Below, piece by piece: positions 20,897-57,250 of a DNA stretch of 64,000 bases. Made by a program: the position numbers and the translations under genes. Source of the DNA: Sanderia malayensis (Eukaryota; Cnidaria; Scyphozoa; Semaeostomeae; Pelagiidae); NCBI GenBank assembly GCA_013076295.1, contig RQOL01000772.1, positions 806,001 through 870,000 of the forward strand, given 5' to 3'. How positions within the stretch are numbered: the first letter of the stretch is position 1; each line of letters opens with the position of its first letter. The notes beneath the pieces were generated by a model, which was not told where the DNA came from, did no database searches, and worked only from the letters and a program-made list of their open reading frames with translations.

Positions 20897-20972
20897 ATAT
20901 TGACCGGGCTGGGTGGGGTCGAGCCCACGTCCTTCGGTCTCTCACGCCGACGCCCTACCATTGGGCTATCCA
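20897..20972 (-). other. tRNA-like sequence, probably a pseudogene or SINE head
   Basis: On the minus strand there is an A-box-like stretch (ATAGCCCAATGGTAGGGCGT) and a B-box-like stretch (GGGCTCGACCCCA) at tRNA-like spacing. The anticodon stem pairs four of five positions. The acceptor stem does not pair, so it is not a convincing functional tRNA. Confidence 0.35.
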
Positions 20973-24400: not shown

Positions 24401-26456
24401 TGATAAGAAGAAGATCTGATTACCTGAAGCAGCCACAAGAGCTCCAGATGGTGACAGTGTCACACAGGAATTATAAACAAGAAGTGTATCAATTGTTGCT
24501 AGAACCTCTCCTAAAACAGAAAAGATATTGTATTTCCAGGTAACTTCTATAGAAAGAATGTAAGCATAGATTAAAAATTTAAGACCAAAGATTAACCTTT
24601 CAGTGTCCATATTATAATTGTTGTATCTTTGCTTGCAGACATTACAAACTTGCCAGTGGATGAAATACAAACACTAATGATTTCAGATTTGTGAAGTTTG
24701 GGAAAATCTTCTGCTTCGGTAGTGATAAAGGCTGGCGTGCTTCCTTCTTTCTTCTTGTTTATTTTGAATATTCTAATTGCATTGTGTACAGCCAATGAAG
24801 TGATGAATGCTCTATGAATTCAAGCAACACAGAAACTCATAGAAGTCTTTTAGCATCTGAGAATTGTGTGGCATTTAGCATAGTATTGCGTTCAACTGAG
24901 AGTATGCATTAAAGTGAAAATGATTCAGCAAAGTTACCGTAAATCCTCAAATAAGCCCCTGGGTGCTATAAGATGCAGCCAATCAATAAAGTTATTGGCT
25001 TAAACTTGCTGTTAATTGCAATACATTCACTGAACAACTTCAATGTCTGGAAACTTGGGCTCACTATCCTTGCAAATGATTAACAGGATGGGGGCTTATT
25101 GGAAGCAGGGGGGGGGCTTATTCAGAGGTGGGGGCTTATTCGAGGATTTACGGTAGCAAGTCATACATGCTGCATTGCCCAACTAACAACCACATTGGAG
25201 TGTTGGCATAGAAAATACATACCAGGGGAATATAAAGTACAGAAGAACAGGGAACATGAAGGGAGCATACATGTAAGTTATTGAGTTACCTTGAATCAGG
25301 ACTGAATGACATTGATGTTGCGTGGTCAAGATCCACATTAGCTCTCACATACCTTTAATGGAAAGAGAGTACGTAAATACATGGTAACATGAAATGAAGA
25401 TACGTCAGCTGGTGAGCACCATAAGGTATCTGTCACCAGAGGTAAACAATAGAACAATAGAGGATAAGTATAGAACAAAGAAAAGAATAATAGAGGAGAA
25501 TAATAAAATAACAGATGAGATCAATAAAAACAGCTAAACAGCTCCTTGTATTCCAAAAACCTTTTCATACTCTTGCTAATCAGTCTATCAGATTACGGTA
25601 TTTCCTCAATTAAATGCCCCGGGGCGTTTATTGGAAAGTACAAGATCACAGGCTCTGTCATTGGGTCCAGAAAAGAGAAGATGGTTTAGTTGAGCCTTGC
25701 TTTATCGAGCAACAACGTAGAAAATGAAAGTCGCCATGATTTTGCACAAAGAGGGGGCATTTAATCGAGGGGGGCGTTTATTGCAAAAGTTGGTAGCATA
25801 AGGGGGCATTTATTTGAGGGGGACTTTTAATCGAGGGGGGCATTTAATCGAGGAAATACAGTAAAGTAATTTGAAAACCAAAATTATTTCATTGTGCATA
25901 CTTATGCTCCTTTTCTTCAAAGTCCTTTGTCATCCACAAACGAATTGTTCTATCTAGAAAAAAAAAATAATGCCACATTATGAACAGGGTCCAAAAATGC
26001 TTACCATAAGGGAAACTTATTCTTTTATTCGTATTTTTAAATCCATCAGCACTTTTCACTTTGCATGTGATATACAGCCTGAAATCTGATAAAACAAGCA
26101 TGCATGATGCTTAAATACCTACCTTCAGAACAAGAACCAAGGTATTTTCCACAAGCACTGAATTGCATTTGCATGATGGACCCAATGTGGCCTTTTAGCG
26201 AGGACATTAGCAATGGATGTGAGAACGCCATCTCTTTAGATTTAGTTTTACTCTTTTCTTTTACCTGAGCAGTTTTCTTTTTTGCATCTTGCTCCTTTTT
26301 GCTGTCCTCCTTACTCGTCTTGCCTTCAGAGTTGTCGACCTCTTGGGACTCTGGCTTTTTTCTGTTGAAAATCATCAAAACTGCGAGGACAAATCCACCA
26401 AAAAATATTGTCAAAATAATTATTGACAATATCTGAGCTCCGTTTGCTTCTTCCAT
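21454..26456 (-). CDS. TBL2: TBL2, transducin beta-like 2 (ER-anchored WD40 protein)
   Basis: Orthologue of TBL2, an ER membrane WD40 protein linked to the PERK stress response in vertebrates. Exon 1 (26456-26123) has an N-terminal membrane anchor (ILSIIILTIFFGGFVLAVLM), a Lys/Glu-rich linker, and the first WD40 strand (SSLKGHIGSIMQMQFSACGK). Further exons: 25953-25902 (RTIRLWMTKDFEEKEHK), 25352-25290 (YVRANVDLDHATSMSFSPDS), 24811-24597 (TTEAEDFPKLHKSEIISVCI, TIIIWTLKG), 24509-24424, about 24336-24275 (SSDIKMWSVEFDKVGDFKQ), about 23909-23836 (ALDLKGHSAGVHSFSFSADS), about 23634-23580, 23159-22953, about 22443-22277 (DRTVRVWHNPIG) and 21487-21454 (ERIEQQVREAK). The order and spacing match TBL2 along its length. 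I could not place the last few codons with certainty; an acceptor near 20711 could supply a short terminal exon. Introns hold MITEs. Confidence 0.92.
23201..23387. mobile_element. TA-flanked MITE in a TBL2 intron (AATTCGAA family, copy 2)
   Basis: The left end reads TAGTCAAATCTGCATAGTTC and the right end GCAGGGTTGACTGCA, imperfect inverted copies rich in AATTCGAA and GTTCGAA words. The interior carries CCCTTCAAGGATCACTGATG, the reverse of the copy at 18827-18991. End positions are good to a few bases. It is non-coding. Confidence 0.72.
24937..25153. mobile_element. 217-bp TA-flanked MITE in a TBL2 intron
   Basis: Inverted termini CCGTAAATCCTCAAATAAGC on the left and CCGTAAATCCTCGAATAAGC read from the right, flanked by TA at 24935-24936 and 25154-25155. 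G-runs near the right end are part of the repeated word AATAAGCCCCC. It is non-coding. Confidence 0.82.
25596..25861. mobile_element. 266-bp TA-flanked MITE in a TBL2 intron
   Basis: Termini CGGTATTTCCTCAATTAAAT on the left and CTGTATTTCCTCGATTAAAT read from the right, with TA flanks at 25594-25595 and 25862-25863. The right half contains several copies of the word TTAATCGAGGGGG. It resembles the 24937-25153 element in layout but not closely in sequence. Confidence 0.8.
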
Positions 26457-26591: not shown

Positions 26592-26600
26592 TTGGGGACA
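26592..26600. repeat. Target-site duplication of the MULE, left copy
   Basis: TTGGGGACA directly precedes the left TIR and is repeated exactly at 32342-32350 directly after the right TIR. A 9-bp exact duplication at the tips of an inverted repeat is strong evidence that both element ends are correctly placed. Confidence 0.92.
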
Positions 26601-26630
26601 GGTTGATGATCGATACCAATGAGTAAAAGG

Positions 26631-26697
26631 CATAGAGATAGGATATAAGATAAGATAAGATAAGATAAGATAAGATATCTTATATCCTATCTCTATG
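26631..26697. mobile_element. 67-bp palindromic mini-insertion inside the MULE left TIR
   Basis: The insert starts CATAGAGATAGGATATAAG and ends with the inverse of that word, so it folds into one hairpin. The centre is a run of ATAAG units. It is flanked by an 8-bp duplication GTAAAAGG (26623-26630 and 26698-26705). The word is single in the right TIR apart from one base change, which shows it interrupted the left TIR. Confidence 0.8.
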
Positions 26698-26969
26698 GTA
26701 AAAGGACGCTTGCCGAGAATTTTTAACTAAGTACTCGGGAAATGATTATCGGTAGACCCGAAGTAGGCGTGAATACGAAGAGTCCAAACCGAAAATAATC
26801 ATCGTTGTTGTTGCTTTTTGGCGGGAAACTTAATTCCGGTTATTTTGTCTTGTGTGTTGCTTGCTTTTGCAAATGTGCATGTTTGTAGATACATATGAAT
26901 AACTATCTAATTTTGTAGCATTTAAAATCAGTAATCAGTAAGATAGCTTGCGAAGACTCTATGATATGG

Positions 26970-27134
26970 CACTGGCGTAGCTGCGATTTGGCGGCGAAGG
27001 AGCGAAACCAGGACAAATTCCGACAAACGTAAAATTTGCGTTGTAAATTTTCCGACAAATTTTCCGACAAGCAGCTGGAAACGTTTGGTGGAGGGGCAGC
27101 TGCCCCCCCTGCCCCCCCTATAGCTACGCCACTG
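26970..27134. mobile_element. 165-bp hAT-like MITE nested in the MULE
   Basis: Ends CACTGGCGTAGCTGC and, read from the right, CAGTGGCGTAGCTATAG form short inverted repeats. A perfect 8-bp duplication TGATATGG flanks it (26962-26969 and 27135-27142). CAGTGGCGTA-type termini with 8-bp duplications are typical of hAT MITEs. It lies about 70 bp upstream of the transposase start codon. Confidence 0.85.
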
Positions 27135-27203
27135 TGATATGGGAGCAGAAATGTAAATTGTTATGACAAGCTGTGATAAGTTATAGCTCTATGCCTTTCG
27201 TAA

Positions 27204-30200
27204 ATGGACGAGGTTTACGCTGAAGAAAGTGAATTCGCGGACAATGCGTCACAAATTGGCAGCATTCAAGACAAAGAATCTAATGATGGTTAGTAATCTA
27301 ACGCTTACTTATAAAAAGCGATACCAGAACAGGGGTAGGTGTGGGGTGGGGGCTAGCAAAGTTCTTGTATATCACTCGTTGGCTCACACACAGCTAATAA
27401 TTTATGATTCACATTATATCAATTACAGTGCACTATACAAATACAATCCAAGAGGCACTGGAGATAATAAGAAAGCATGAACTTCAGCACACGCTGCGTT
27501 ATTCGTGCTATCAATCTACAAAAGACTTTGGAAACACAGGTAAGACTCCCTATTCTCAGTAATTTTCTTGCCATTTCTAGCTGTATTTCTTTTTCATGAA
27601 CAACAAGCTGATTTCATGCACCCTAGATTTCCGAGGCTCAAGGCACAAAGTGCATTGGAACAATAGCCAGACTCAATATAATGGTGTCCCGTTCTTTATA
27701 CTGGGAAGTAAGTATTTACAATGTCAGCATGGAAAGGATTATCAGGCTGCGAAGAAACAAAGCAGAAAAAATAAGAAAGTCAAGGATCAGGTAAGCTTAT
27801 GCCAAACTATCAGAAACTGTAAATGCTGATCACATGTACAAAAAGGGGCAGTGCAATTTGCGTCTCCTCACTTCTTTGATCACATGAACTTTGCGTTCCT
27901 TCGATATGATTGGAGGATAGCTATTTAGCCCCTGACGTATCGCTTTTGACGTTAATTCACTTCAATGTAGTGAGATTTAAAGTAATTCCGTTGATTCACT
28001 TTAAAGCAATGTAATTTAAAAGCAAGTTTGCTCACAGTTGGAAATCAATAATTAACTCAGAATCGTTTTTATCCACAGGGTAATGACCATTGCTATCGAC
28101 GAAAGTACACGCTTGTACAAGACACCAAAAAGTTTGGATGTCCAGCTAAAATAATTCTGCAAGAAATCCTGCAATTTCCACAGTATAAGGTAATATTACA
28201 ACAAACCATTTAGGAGATAGTGTTGGAGAAGCTCCAAACATGAGCTATGGGTCATTGAAGCTCTTACCTTTTTGTTACAGATCAATGATAACACAGAAAG
28301 AAGGCGCAAATCTGCGTCAAATAAAATAAAAGTCGCAATTGAATCGCAAACATGTATTGAAACAGTGCGAAAATTTGTCGTCAACATTCTCAATAGCGAA
28401 ACTCATGCCAATCATCCAATAGGAGCTGTAAGTATGATTGAAATTATACCAATGACATCCCAAGTGCTTTTCATGCTACTTTTGTGACTTACAATATTGT
28501 AAGAAAATGCAATTTGTTGATTTATTTCATTAGGTGGCCGGTATCTCCCAAGAAATTGATGAGCGTTTAGCGGAAAAGATTGACAAGCTTGTACGCGAGG
28601 GTGTCTCCAGGGTAAACGAAATGAAAAGGCACTTGAAGATTTTTGTGAAAACATCCCTATTCAGTGAAGATGAAATGCCCGATGCATCGAATAGAAGATT
28701 CTTTCCTCGCGACAAAGTAATCAGAAACCATATGGTTGTAACGACAAGAAAACTTCGTCATTCAATGGTAGACCAAGAATATTTGCAAGAAAAGGTAACT
28801 GAGTGGAAAGAATCTGGCACCGATGTAAAGATATTTTTCCGCCCAAGATCTGCAAATCATTCAGACGCTGACATCAAACAAGATGAAAGTGATGGTGGAG
28901 ATGGTTATGATTCTGATGAGTCAGTCGACGTCGAATGCAGAGGAAATCATCGTAATCAGCTGCTGTTTATTTATCAAAATAGTTGGCAAAAGAGATTATT
29001 AAATCGCTATGGAAATGAGCTTGCAATGCTGGATGCAACATACCGTACAACACGATACTCTCTGCCGTTATTCTTTCTTGTCGTGCGCACCAATGTAGAT
29101 TACCAAGTTGTTGGTACATTTGTTTGCGAGAGTGAAACAACAGAGAGTATCCAAGAAGCACTTGAAATTATAAAGAAATGGAATCCAGAGTTTAAGCCGA
29201 AGCATTTCATGACAGATTACTCCAATGAGGAAATTACAGCTATAGAAAATGTCTTTCCTGGTAATTTTATTATTACTGATATTACTGCAGTTAGTATGCC
29301 CAGCTTTTTGACATGTTATTAAAAAAATTTTTGCTTTTTAATTAGGTTGCTTTACACTACTGTGTGACTTTCACCGAGAACAAGCCTGGGATCGCTGGCT
29401 TCGAAAAACAGCAAATGGCTGTTCACAGATACGCACCGATGTATTAGACATGTTGAGACGCATCGCCCGGTCGCAGACAGATGAAGGATGTACGCTTGCA
29501 GAAAAAGATTTGAAAGCATCGCCGATTTGGAAAAAGCGAGAGTATGGAAAATTAGTACAATATGTCGAGACGTACTGGCTTCCAATAAAAAAGGTATGCG
29601 CATCTTCGTTAGTAGTTCACGTGCTTACTAACGGTACAGCCAAACTAGGCAACATTGTTGGGCTACTTCTGCTACTTAATGCTGTGCTAATTAGCTAACA
29701 CATGTCGACCAGTTTGCGACTTTCAAATCTATGATTGACCAAGCGAATTCGTTTTACAGAGATGGGTTCAGGCATATCGACAAGATCGGATTTTGGTCAA
29801 TTGCAACACAAATAATGGTACTGAGAGACAAAATGAGGCTTTAAAATACCAGTATCTGGAGAGAAATACAAAAAGATCTTTGACCAGAATGCTGATGACA
29901 CTGATAGACCAGTTTTTTCCTGATAAGTATGACCGGTAAGTGCGTTAAACGTCACAATGCAGATAACAAAAGTTAGCTTTGATTTTAAAGTGTTACCAAT
30001 TGGTCAATTTATATTTATACTACAGATACTGTGAAGCAAATATGAAGCAAAGCTCATCTTATCGATTACATGCACAAAGTGTACCTGAAATGATCCGAAG
30101 CTGCCCAAAGGATTTCATAAAGCATTGGCTGGAGAAGAAAGATCTGTCTGACAGTATTCCCAGTTCACACGTTGCAATGACTGGTTATGGCAAATTCACA

Positions 30201-31956
30201 GTCCAAAGTCTTTCAAGAAATACTCTTTGCCAAGACTATGAAGTCTTCTTTGGTAACGAGAAAATGTTACCAAGTTGCTCATGCTACGATTGGAAAAAGT
30301 CCCCTTTCCTTTGCAAGCATTTCTTTGCAATATTTCGAGTATTCCCTGTCTGGTCATGGAATGCATTGTCGCCAATTTATAGAGAATCCCCATTCTTCCG
30401 GCTAGATGAATTGTTTGGTTGTGACAGTGCTGAAAAAGACAGAAAGATAGAGCTTGAAACAGAATCAAGTGTTGAAAAATCTGTTGAAATATCTGCAATA
30501 GAGTTAAATAATGAAGTGGGCTTCAACATTTTGGATGGATCCATCCATGAGCCTAACATAGATCAACCAATTGATCAACTACAAGAACGCATACCTCCCA
30601 ACTGTGGAGTGCTTGTTAGGGAGACAATAAGTGAAATCCGTTCCTTAACATTTTTACTTGAGAGCCAACCAGAAACATTGTTCAAACTGCATAGTGATCT
30701 TGAACAGTTGAAAGAACAGTTGTATGCTGTGTGTCCTAAAGAGAAAGGATTGCCATTACTTCCCTGCACTGCTAATTCAACAATGAAAAATTTGTCAAAA
30801 AGAAAATTGCTGTCTCTACCCTCTAGAAAGCAAAAATGGAAGTATGTTTCAAGAGTTGGTGAGAAACGTGACAAAATTGAAGCTGCAAAAACAGTTGAAG
30901 TTAAAAGCAAGAAAGATTACCCAGTAGATGAGACAATTGTTCCAAATTTCATTGATGGTAGTGAGAGCTCTGAAATAATTCATGCAGATGCAGATGTAAT
31001 AGTTGAAGATAATGACACTGACACTGACATCACAGACATTCATGGCCCAGCACCAGCTGTGGAGTCTTGTTCTGTATATGGTAGCAGGGACATTGAAGCA
31101 TGCTCTATCAGATCAACCCTAACAAAGAAAGATTTGAAGATTTTTGAGAAAAATGAAATGCTCAATGATAACATAATAAATGTATTCCAAAGGATGATGG
31201 CAAAGGAATTCAATTATCCAGCAGGATTGCAAGACTCAGTTCTGGGACAAAAGCTGAAGTTCAAGCCATTGGTAGACATTCCATTTGTTCAAATCTTGCA
31301 CGATGGAAATCTCCATTGGATAGCTATAAGTACATACGGTTGTGCTGATAATGAAATATTGTACATGGACAGCTCATTTCATGGATCAATAACAAAAAAA
31401 ATAAAACAGCAAATCTGCAATATTCTCATGTGCAGAAAAAACAAGATAAAAGTAAAGGTTTTACCAGTTCAACAGCAAGCAAACAATGTTGATTGTGGAG
31501 TTTATGCCATTGGATTCATAAGTACCATACTGTATGGAACATTGGATATTCATGCAATTAACTATGATGGATCAAAGATGAGATCACATCTGCTGCGCAT
31601 TCTCATGCAAAACAAATTTGAACCATTTCCTGAGACACCACATAAAACAAGAAAATGCCCTGAAAAACTCATTGAAATCGATGTATTTTGTAGCTGTCGT
31701 CAAATTTGGCTAAAATCAGATGATAAAGTGTTTGCAAGGTTAGCTATGTCAATTTGTTAAGGTTTAGATTTAACAATTAAATAATAACATTCATTACATT
31801 TTTTAAGCATTTGCTGTTTTTTCTAGGCAAATGGCAGAGTGCAATCAATGTCAGAATTGGTTTCACAGGATGTGTGAGAGAATACCAGGTCAGGTATTCC
31901 ATGACACAGATGTTGAATGGAAATGCTCCCACTGTCAGAATAAACCTAATAACTAG
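27204..31956 (+). CDS. MULE transposase fused to CARF-like, SWIM, Ulp1-protease and PHD modules
   Basis: Ten exons: 27204-27288, 27429-27539, 27627-27790, 28079-28189, 28281-28427, 28534-29260, 29346-29593, 29760-29935, 30026-31738, 31827-31956. All junctions are GT-AG, phases agree, and the product is 1203 residues with no internal stop. Residues about 66-157 resemble the CARF/ALS2CR8 domain (GVPFFILGSKYLQCQHGKD, then TKKFGCPAKIILQEI and FPQYK). The MULE core has D373 (LDATY), D434 (MTDYSNEE), C455 and H458 (CDFHREQAWDRW) and E553 (TNNGTERQNEALK). A SWIM finger follows (C674, C676, C686, H688; CSCYDWKKSPFLCKHF). A C48/Ulp1-type protease has H1020 (LHWIA), D1038 (YMDSS), Q1073 or a neighbour, and C1080 (VDCGVYAIGF). 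A PHD finger closes the protein (C1145, C1147, C1166, C1169, H1174, C1177, C1194, C1197). Predicted roles are transposition, removal of a SUMO-like modifier, and histone-tail reading. Family assignments are by motif only. A short upstream ORF at 27191 overlaps the start. Confidence 0.9.
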
Positions 31957-32341
31957 TATATTAAATAAGCAAGTAGGGCATTCCTGCTGAAGTCTGCAGG
32001 TTAAAAACCTCCCAGCGACCAGTGTGCTCTGCTGGGTAAGTTTGCTCAGGCGTTACTGTTACTTTTTATCAAATTGCGTTAAATGCACTAACTTTTTTTC
32101 GTGTTACATATTTTACATTTCACGTTGGCAAGAATCAATAAAAAGTAACCATTGTGTAGCTTTGTAACTTTAACTCTTTAGGCCGGTCATATCCTGTCCA
32201 TTTAGTCGTGATGTTATTGTATTGTCGTTCGGCCGGCGGAGGCACACTACCAAATACCGAATGCTCGAAATTTAACGACAAAACTCGGACATAACATTTT
32301 TCGGTGAGGGTCCTTTTGCTCATTGGTATCGATCATCAACC

Positions 32342-32350
32342 TTGGGGACA
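32342..32350. repeat. Target-site duplication of the MULE, right copy
   Basis: Exact second copy of TTGGGGACA, abutting the right TIR. Confidence 0.92.
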
Positions 32351-50165: not shown

Positions 50166-51160
50166 GGTGGGCGTGTATGCGCAGCGCAGTGCCATGTATA
50201 GGCTGCTGCGAAGAAGTATGCATGACGTAATACTATTGCCAGCATTTAATGTATCAGCTAGGGTCAGGGTTAGCGTAAGGGTTACGTCATGCCGAGGAGA
50301 AAGGTGGTCAGCATGCGCAGTGGCATACATATAGGTACTCCGCAGGAGCATATATGATGTGACGCTGGTGGATGCATTGCCCTTAGGGTTAGGGTTAGCG
50401 TTAGGGTTACCTCATGCGGAGGGGAAAAGTGGTCAACATGCGCAGTGGCATTTACTCATTGGGTACTGTTGTAATTTTGTAGTTGATTGTCAGTAAAAAC
50501 CTTTGTGATGCATAAATTTAGTATTAGGGGTGTGTTTTAGGAGATTAACAATGTCAACACTAAGAACAATAGTCAATTTTTAAATAAGACAAGTAGAAAT
50601 AAGTTAGAAGTAGAGTCATCGAACATCGCACGAGAGGGTTCATTCGCATATCCGCATAATTCGCACTTTTTCGCTCACTTGATTTAAGTAGTTTTAAAGA
50701 ATCTTTAGTTTAATTGTTGTTTATCAAAGACATGATTGTTCATCGATTATTCTGCAATTTCTCAACGGAACCAATCAATTAGGGATGGTTTACATTTGCG
50801 TAAACCATCATATCCTAACACAAAATACTTCAGGTACTGCGCAGGAGCATATGTGACGTGAGGCTGGTGGATGCATTGGCCTTGGGTTAGGGCTGGCGTT
50901 AGGGTTAGGGTTACGTCATGCGGAGGAGAAAGGTGGTCGGTATGCGCAGTATCATTTATATAGGTACTGCGCAGGAGCATCTGTGACGTGACGCTGGTGG
51001 ATGCATTGGCCTTGGGTTAGGGTTGGCGTTAGGGTTAGGGTTACGTCATGCGGAGGAGAAAGGTGGTCGGTATGCGCAGTATCATTTATATAGGTACTGC
51101 GCAGGAGCATCTGTGACGTGACGCTGGTGGATGCATTGGCCTTAGGGCTTGGGTCAGCGT
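50166..51160. repeat. 130-bp minisatellite carrying interstitial TTAGGG repeats
   Basis: Units begin near GGTACTGCGCAGGAGCAT and contain GACGCTGGTGGATGCATTGG, a run of TTAGGG copies, TTACGTCATGCGGAGGAGAA and TATGCGCAGT. Clear unit starts lie at 50833, 50963 and 51093, exactly 130 bp apart, and the last two units look almost identical. Older, diverged units occupy 50166-50460, with unrelated sequence at about 50470-50820. TTAGGG is the usual animal telomere repeat, but unique genes lie on both sides, so this is an internal site. Confidence 0.85.
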
Positions 51161-51225
51161 TAGTATTCTATCCTCACTGTTCTCTATTCTTCTCCTTTCA
51201 AATATGGATAAGATGTGGCAAGTGC
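51161..51225. repeat. 65-bp repeat of element II, outer copy
   Basis: Begins TAGTATTCTATCCTCACTGT and is repeated at 51481-51545. The word TATCCTCACTGT is also the inverse of the end of the 186-bp repeat, so the ends carry a short inverted repeat 8 bp in. Confidence 0.87.
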
Positions 51226-53759: not shown

Positions 53760-56700
53760 CATGGATGGAGTTCAACCTTGCTATCGGAACAGTGAGACCA
53801 TCGTAGGGGCTGGGGAACGAAATCGATACGCGGAAAAACCTGATCATCTCATAAGGCAGAAATATTGCAATAAAATCACATACTCATCATAATAGACACA
53901 TCGCAGTAACGGGGAAGCGAACTCAATGAGCGAAAAGACATGAACTTCTTATAAAGTTAAAACGTCATGATACAAAAACGTAGGGTCATCGCAGGAAGTG
54001 CAAATTGCAGTCTCAGAAAGGTGTAAACAATTGCCATACACGTACATCCAACCATCTCATAAGTTGTAAATCGCGACATCTGGGAGAAGGAAAAATCGAT
54101 ATGCGAAGGGATGGTCATGATAGAGGGCATGTCACGATACCAACTGCGTGATCATCGCAAAAATTCTACACAATGGAATATTGGGGCACTGAAAATTGCT
54201 CTGTGAAAAAACATGGACATCATATGAGGTAGAAATCTAGCGATAAAGAACACATGATCATCTCATAAAGTAGCTACATATCGCAGTCTCGGCGTAACGA
54301 AATGGATAGGCGAAAACGTAATCATGATCTAAGGCATAAATACCCGCGATACAACTACATAATCATCTCATAAAACAGAAACAGTGCAATATCGTCTTAG
54401 AAGTTACACATCGGAATATCAGGCCAACGAAATCAAGAATGCGAAGACATGATCGTTTCATACATTGTAAATATCGTGATATAAACTAAAGTTCATTTTG
54501 GAAAATTGCACATCCCAATATCAAGGAAACCAGATCAAAATGCGAAAAACGTGATCATCTCATATATGCAAACATCGCGATAGAGGCACATGATTATCGT
54601 GGAAATTACACTTCGGAATAGAAGGGAGACAAAATCGAAATGGGAAAAACCTGATCATCTCGTAAATGGTAAAACACCTGCGTTACAACTACATGATCAT
54701 CGAGAAAAATTACGCATTGCATTACCGTTCTATTGCAACGAACTGCTCATATCGTGCGAACATGCAGCTGAGTGGCTGGTTTTGAGGGTCGACCATCGAC
54801 GGTACACTTGGCGGTAGACGTAACGTACTTGGAAATGATAGATACAATAGAGTGAAAAGAGAAAGTTAACCCAGCGAAGGAACATAACACAAAAGCAAAG
54901 ACAGATGGAGGACCCCCAATCCCAGCCACTCAGAGCTGACAGCACGAATGCCGCGCATTAAGGCCCTTAGTTAGGCCCCCAAGTGACTGAGCCGGAGAGA
55001 GTTGAAGAATGAGGATAAAATAGTAGCGAGTGCAGGTCAGAAAAGAGACAGCGAAAAAGACAAACGTCGAAGTAACGAAATCACATGATCAACTATGGCG
55101 ACGATCAAGGCAACTAACTGTGGCAGCAATCATGGCAATAAAATCGAAATGCAAATATTTTCGTCTCATATATAGTACACATCGCGGTTAAACATTGCAT
55201 TATCAGGGGAACGAATTTGAAGAGCGTGAAACATGCTTATCATCTGATATATGATGAAACGTCGTGATAGAAACACAAGATCATCTTGGCAATTACACAT
55301 TGCAATATCAGGGGAACGAAATTGAAATGCGATAACATGATCATCTCATAAGATATAAACCTCGCGATACAAAACACATGGTCATCATAGAACAATTACA
55401 CATTGCAATACCAGGGTAACGAAATCGAAATGCGATAACATGATCATCTCATAAGATATAAACATCGCGATACAAGCACATGATCATCTCAGAAGTGACA
55501 CATCGCAAAATCAGGGGAACAAAATCGAAAAGCGACAACATGATCATCTCATAAAACATAAACCTCGCGATACAAACACATGATCATCATAGAACAATTA
55601 CACATCGCACTATCAGGGGAACGAAATCGAAATGTGAAAACATGATCAACGCATTCATGATAAACATCGCTATACAAAAGCACATGATCATCTCAGAAGT
55701 GACACATCGCAAAATCAGGGGAACAAAATCGAAAAGCGACAACATGATCATCTCATAAAACATAAACCTCGCGATATAAACACATGATCATTATAGAACA
55801 ATTACACATCGCACTATCAGGGGGACGAAATCGAAATGTGAAAACATGATCAACGCATTCATGATAAACATCGCTATACAAAAACACATGATCATCTCAG
55901 AAAATGACACATCGCAAAATCAGGGGAACAAAATCGAAAAGCGACAACATGATCATCTCATAAAACATAAACATCGCGATACAAGCACATGATCATCCTA
56001 GAACAACTACACATCGCACTATCAGGGGAACGAAATCGAAATGCGAAAACATAATCAACGCATTCATGATAAACATCGCTATACAAAAACACATGACCAT
56101 CTCAGAAATGACACATCGCAAAATCAGGGGGAACGAAATCGAAAAGCGACAACATGATCATCTCATAAAACATAAACATCGCGATACAAGCACATGATCA
56201 TCATAGAACAATTACACATCGCAATACCAGGGTAACGAAATCGAAATGCGAAAACATGATCAACGCATTCATGCTAAACATCGCGATACAAAAACACATG
56301 ATCATCTCAGAAGTGACACATCGCAAAATCAGGGGAACAAAATCGAAAAGCGACAACATGATCATCTCATAAAACATAAACCTCGCGATATAAACACATG
56401 ATCATTATAGAACAATTACACATCGCACTATCAGGGGGACGAAATCGAAATGTGAAAACATGATCAACGCATTCATGATAAACATCGCTATACAAAACAC
56501 ATGATCATCTCAGAAAATGACACATCGCAAAATCAGGGGAACAAAATCGAAAAGCGACAACATGATCATCTCATAAAACATAAACATCGCGATACAAGCA
56601 CATGATCATCCTAGAACAACTACACATCGCACTATCAGGGGAACGAAATCGAAATGCGAAAGCATGATCAACGCATTCATGATAAACGTCGCGATACAAA

Positions 56701-57250
56701 CACGTGATCATCATAGAAAAATTACACATCGCACTATCAGGGTAACGAAATCGATATGCGATAACATGATCATCTCATGGACCATAAAACATCGCGATAC
56801 AAACACATGATCATCATAGAAAAATTACACATCGCACTATCAGGGTAACGAAATCGATATGCGATAACATGATCATCTCATGGACCATAAAACATCGCGA
56901 TACAAACACATGATCATCATAGAAAAATTACACATCGCACTATCAGGGTAACGAAATCGATATGCGATAACATGATCATCTCATAAAACATAAACATCGC
57001 GATACAAACACATGATCATGATAGAAGAATTACACATCGCAATAACAGGGTAACGAAATCGATATGCGATAACATGATCATCTCATGAAACATAAACATC
57101 GCGAATACAAACACATGATCATCGCAGAATTTTGACATCGCAATATCGGGGAAACGAAATCGATATGCGATAACATAATCATCTCATGAAGCATAAAACA
57201 ACGCGATACACATACATGAAGATTTTTGAAGTTACACATCGCAATAACCA
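53760..57250. repeat. Satellite array with units of about 100-110 bp inside element II
   Basis: Units contain ACATGATCATCTCAT, AAACATCGCGATACAA, a second ACATGATCATC, ATTACACATCGC, and AACGAAATCGAAATGCG. Units at 55300-57100 are similar to each other and partly arranged as higher-order repeats of about 210-430 bp, while those at 53760-54700 are diverged. The array is interrupted at 54736-55065 by the duplicated block. All visible sequence is repeat-derived and non-coding. Confidence 0.85.
54736..55065. repeat. Duplicated block of about 300 bp in element II, copy 2
   Basis: Second copy of 53316-53640, lying inside the satellite array. Its placement suggests that the block and the satellite units were amplified together. 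Confidence 0.78.

Follow-up and report, generated by a model that had tools for sequence, protein, structure and literature searches.

A Mutator-like DNA transposon of the jellyfish Sanderia malayensis, probably recently mobile, with a CARF-type head and predicted SWIM, Ulp1 and PHD modules in its transposase

Ulp1 and PHD domains on Mutator transposases, those of Hydra included, were in print by 2010. Bao and Jurka (2010) aligned the two domains from transposases of both Ginger1 and Mutator type. In the available part of their paper, Mutator elements with Ulp1 are named for Hydra, lancelet and plants, the Hydra MuDR entry being cited there from Repbase Reports 2008 (PMC2836005). The subject of the present analysis is a Mutator-like element (MULE) located at positions 26601-32341 of a 64,000-nucleotide stretch of the scyphozoan Sanderia malayensis (contig RQOL01000772.1, positions 806,001 to 870,000), the whole of which is referred to as the window. 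Like Hydra MuDR, it combines a MULE core with a C-terminal Ulp1 domain and a PHD finger, the latter appearing for Hydra in the 2010 alignment. The Hydra element differs in its host, the available part of the source makes no mention of an ALS2CR8 head, and the two are likened by description only (PMC2836005). Ginger1 also has a transposase with a C-terminal Ulp1 domain, once Ulp1 plus PHD (Ginger1-9_HM), but its catalytic core is described there as Gypsy-integrase-type and not MULE (PMC2836005). Plant MULEs without terminal inverted repeats (TIRs), of the VANDAL kind, likewise carry Ulp1 in the form of the Kaonashi (KIU) genes, which the accessible text ties to escape from silencing; there Ulp1 is a separate gene, whereas in the window element it is fused to the transposase (PMC13317346).

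Among animal MULEs, Muta1 of Aedes aegypti resembles the window element in its 8-9-bp target site duplication (TSD) and its non-autonomous derivatives; a genic insertion preference and activity in yeast are reported for it (PMC5225508, available in part). Mosquito MULE families encode transposases of 416-554 residues, some with FLYWCH or SWIM, and the same part of that paper mentions no CARF head, Ulp1 or PHD (PMC5225508). The animal MULE group tables of Dupeyron et al. (2019) mention neither Ulp1 nor ALS2CR8, and 'ulp', 'als2cr8' and 'peptidase' are absent from the main text, as far as the paper was available (PMC6446971). No description of an ALS2CR8 head on a transposase was found in the literature searched, which did not include Repbase.

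We put at about 0.85 the probability that the window element belongs to the MULE superfamily of cut-and-paste DNA transposons and has moved recently in its cnidarian host. The evidence for transposition consists of genomic footprints, namely copies, TSDs and an empty site. The element is flanked by TTGGGGACA, identical on the left (26592-26600) and on the right (32342-32350; both unstranded), which is the perfect 9-bp duplication claimed in an earlier, sequence-only reading of the window. That reading had also given TIRs of 30 bp matching at 29 bases, and these were recovered at 26601-26630 (plus strand) and 32312-32341 (minus strand). MULEs are recognized by a TSD of 8-10 bp, mostly 9, together with TIRs, and both are present. 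However, the 30 bp are the outer part of a longer repeat. A sister copy on contig C303 gives a full TIR length of about 49 bp (46/49 matching there), and the right TIR of the window element accordingly spans 32293-32341. In the left TIR a palindromic, unstranded 67-bp miniature inverted-repeat transposable element (MITE) at 26631-26697, with an 8-bp duplication GTAAAAGG at 26623-26630 and 26698-26705, splits the repeat after base 30, and the TIR resumes beyond it at about 26706-26724. Because of this nested MITE, the element that had been called intact is so in its open coding part, but its left end is altered.

A whole-genome search with the element (assembly of 184.0 Mb in 918 contigs) returned 139 matching pieces, including its own site and copies of a second nested MITE of 165 bp. 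The existence of another copy, which had been set as a test, was verified: both TIRs are present in 13 of the 20 loci fetched. One of the 13 is the C303 copy; the other 12 are short derivatives, 1.6-3.4 kb long. The C303 copy is 97.7% identical to the window element, is frameshifted and has neither of the two nested MITEs. The 9-bp duplications of these 13 copies are perfect in 10 cases, contain one mismatch in two and three mismatches in one. In three cases two short copies share 99.8% identity across about 1.7 kb, yet have different duplications. The check for an empty site was also positive. The joined window flanks match contig C600 without the element (query bases 87-300, junction at 150, listed as 100% with one mismatch on reading), and this site holds a single TTGGGGACA. 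The C600 flanks are 97-98% identical to the window, as expected for the other allele of the same site; C600 may instead be a recent duplicate. The C303 copy, the short derivatives and the empty site all support the recent mobility that the sequence-only reading had suggested.

Two related element types were considered and rejected. Pack-MULEs contain host gene fragments and no transposase, while the window element carries a full transposase. Rehavkus elements are defined by a minisatellite ahead of the 3' TIR (PMC6446971, in the part available), and no tandem array of score >= 50 was found between 31957 and 32341. Elsewhere in the window, 55188-57219 is occupied by a minisatellite of two kilobases with units of 102/204 bp, and 50832-51163 by 2.5 copies of a 130-bp tandem repeat (96% matches) that includes TTAGGG-like runs. 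A weak tRNA match on the minus strand at 20910-20971 (31.2 bits against a cut-off of 29) may be a repeat derived from a tRNA.

The transposase gene lies on the plus strand at 27204-31956 and could be rebuilt as proposed, with ten exons (27204-27288, 27429-27539, 27627-27790, 28079-28189, 28281-28427, 28534-29260, 29346-29593, 29760-29935, 30026-31738 and 31827-31956) encoding 1203 residues. All introns are GT-AG, the phases are consistent and there is no internal stop. In EukProt, gene model P0001 agrees at 954/954 residues with the C303 copy when this is translated with the window introns up to its frameshift, and introns 1-8 are therefore supported independently.

The protein contains five modules, all encoded on the plus strand. 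The ALS2CR8/CARF-type head (residues 70-276, 27638-28743) was assigned by Pfam ALS2CR8 (PF15299) at 4.2e-43, with 148.4 bits against a curated cut-off of 28.9. The RNase H-like catalytic core (residues 348-600, 28957-30056) was recovered by domain search as ZSWIM1-3 RNaseH-like (2.4e-14) and MULE (PF10551, 1.3e-11). Its residues D373, D434 and E553 and the CxxH motif at C455/H458 stand where they had been placed before and are conserved, as in a MULE/IS256-type core with DDE and C/H motif; the core of the Hydra relative P0002 gave a fold match to ISCth4. The SWIM finger, CxC-x9-CxH from 674 (residues 674-688, 30276-30320), is followed by the Ulp1/C48 protease domain (residues 956-1135, 31122-31661), which scored 23.7 bits for Peptidase_C48 against a cut-off of 20.7. 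H1020, D1038 and C1080, named earlier, together with Q1074 form the His-Asp-Gln-Cys set of Ulp1/SENP (C48) proteases in the CE-clan fold. The PHD finger (residues 1143-1200, 31683-31944) has the aromatic-cage candidates W1151, M1163 and W1172. The presence of all five modules in one animal MULE protein is supported, although SWIM (18.2 against 19.6) and PHD (18.5 against 24) fell below the Pfam cut-offs, which some Hydra relatives exceed for both.

Contrary to what had been supposed, the five-module order is not unique to this element. Same-genome matches to transposase exons amounted to 59 pieces for exon 6 and 82 for exon 9. Among 21 related loci scanned by tblastn in the stretches fetched, nine (L011, L029, L030, L034 and L035-L039) contain head, core, SWIM, protease and PHD, and the other 12 are without PHD or more within the stretch fetched. 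Several Hydra proteins show the order; three of them (P0002, P0006 and P0007) align along 97-98% of the length with 38-40% identity and retain the residues of head, SWIM, Ulp1 and PHD. Outside cnidarians the order was detected, by Pfam or sequence reading, in the sea urchin Lytechinus variegatus, the sea cucumber Apostichopus and the toad Bufo. In Clytia, one protein combines core, SWIM, protease and PHD in a gene model without the head. L035-L037 represent another five-module MULE family, 6.44 kb long and very young, with perfect 45-bp TIRs and 9-bp duplications; two of its insertions differ at 62 of 6438 bases, and L035 and L036 share flanks, being one duplicated insertion.

A tree of catalytic cores was calculated from 40 rows of our choosing, the window and 39 of 88 proteins, many of them with incomplete gene models. 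The clade in which the window branched (SH-aLRT 98) comprises 15 rows, drawn from Hydra, Clytia and Rhopilema plus two EukProt proteins; the protease is present in all 15 and PHD was seen in 12. The Hydra row P0021, which also has the tail, was placed outside this clade. On the 40-row tree the ULP+PHD label needs eight changes, at least six of them forced by starred branches, a pattern compatible with a single origin as well as with several.

A mechanism can be proposed from these modules. The RNase H core and SWIM would very likely cut and join DNA with a 9-bp stagger, and the ALS2CR8-type head with its conserved C-C-H-H probably binds the element ends. The steps of the two C-terminal domains are inferred from sequence. 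The Ulp1 domain is predicted with good confidence to take some ubiquitin-like modifier off the transposase, or off silencing or repair factors at the element, with an even chance that this modifier is SUMO. The PHD finger might read H3K4 methylation and tether integration to active promoters, a step to which we give a little under even odds. A single assembly contains this site both with and without the animal MULE, whose transposase has two chromatin-facing domains fused to it and maintained by selection; this makes it testable in one protein whether DNA transposons carry tools for promoter choice and for undoing SUMO-based silencing.

The PHD cage of H3K4me3 readers includes a Trp two residues before the His. 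The cage residues W, M, W are kept in 16/16 rows, M or W plus W occupy the cage positions in toad, urchin and sea cucumber, and the C4HC3 pattern with aromatic cage was found by sequence in all 16 rows. The PHD thus appears to keep an H3K4me3-type cage, which is new here. A tentative but serious alternative is that this PHD recognizes histone tails that are unmodified or carry some other modification, or that it serves purely as a structural zinc module. Its scores against PDB sequences were modest (best E 0.0007), an acidic residue before W1172 is missing, unlike in SPP1 and PHF2, and P0048 is without the cage; the conservation of the cage points the other way, as do the top PDB matches, which we take to be mostly H3K4me3 readers. 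For the protease it is possible, at rather less than even odds, that the target is ubiquitin or NEDD8, or the transposase itself, and not SUMO.

It is improbable that Ulp1 and PHD are captured passenger fragments of host genes with no role in transposition. MULEs do capture gene fragments, and Ulp1 capture in plants has been called transduplication (PMC13317346, in the part available). Gene models of 16 of the 40 tree rows, all outside the window's clade and some of them incomplete, have no Ulp1. The protease of the fish protein P0032 (Misgurnus anguillicaudatus) is much more SENP-like, with 122.5 bits for Peptidase_C48 against under 30 bits in the cnidarian relatives scanned, which suggests a separate capture; these two observations indicate that capture of Ulp1 may have occurred more than once. 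Against the passenger explanation, pN of protease and PHD lies below that of the linker in 6/6 comparisons with diverged loci, the catalytic H, D, Q and C are found in 22 of the 24 rows ungapped at those columns, and no row of the window's clade is without the protease. Core, protease and PHD are all under strong constraint, and the linker is the least constrained part. We regard as new here that protease and PHD are constrained nearly like the core.

A domesticated host gene merely retaining transposase ancestry is very improbable at this locus: the long open frame, the database name 'calcium-responsive transcription factor-like' of the relatives P0067 and P0081 and a solo CARF-like gene in the genome would suit it, but TIRs, TSDs and many copies speak against it and the empty site in the same genome disfavours a fixed gene, and it was rejected unless C600 is a misassembly.

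The head takes the name of its Pfam domain from vertebrate CARF (ALS2CR8), and the likeness rests on the Pfam match given above. CARF is a host transcription factor without a transposase core. The head retains four zinc-ligand candidates, C98, C141, H199 and H202, a C-C-H-H set that is new here. A zinc finger of the WRKY-GCM1/FAR1 type is a small sheet with a C-C-H-H zinc site; the best fold match of the head was WRKY, a weak one, and Foldseek gave none under 0.001. A profile search with the head alignment against PDB sequences yielded no convincing match, and a search with the head region alone retrieved three proteins, with no CARF gene among them. The element suggests that the DNA-binding domain of CARF may belong to a transposase family, and it offers a reason for the database name mentioned above. 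It is doubtful that the head is the source or twin of that domain, as part of a joint reading with a WRKY-type head, an H3K4me3-reading, promoter-steering PHD, a silencing-lifting SUMO protease and an ancient animal MULE lineage. The solo gene (L049, C686:1234321-1235184) has the ALS2CR8 domain over several exons and Ala/Ser/Thr-rich flanks, with no MULE match there, and is likely a host CARF gene.

A WD40-repeat host gene, presumably resembling TBL2, lies beside the element with its predicted start codon on the minus strand at 26454-26456, 145 bp from the element end. On C600 a 13.36-kb insertion (L068-L069, C600:20981-34344) with the 9-bp duplication CAGGCCTAA is located 55 bp left of the window's insertion point. 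Its ends are GGT...ACC, with no inverted repeat between them beyond GGT, and one end matches DNA just downstream of the L034 transposase gene. Both insertions are <150 bp upstream of the predicted WD40-gene start codon. Since two different MULE-like insertions, one per assembled version, stand 55 bp apart upstream of this gene, steering by the PHD to active promoters is hinted at. Genic preference was examined by scanning the 1.3-kb flanks of the window element and nine other sites for long open reading frames (ORFs) and Pfam matches, with window segments alone as the control. Flanks with a long ORF numbered 7/10 against 4/19 segments at 150 aa, 8/10 against 12/19 at 120 aa and 5/10 against 3/19 at 190 aa. 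Among the scanned flank ORFs, 3/10 gave any Pfam match at 0.01, one of them to another transposase.

The second nested MITE (165 bp, unstranded) is located in the leader at 26970-27134, with ends CACTGGCGTAGCT and an 8-bp duplication TGATATGG, from which we take it to be hAT-like. Another 11 genomic sites carry it at 97-100% identity.

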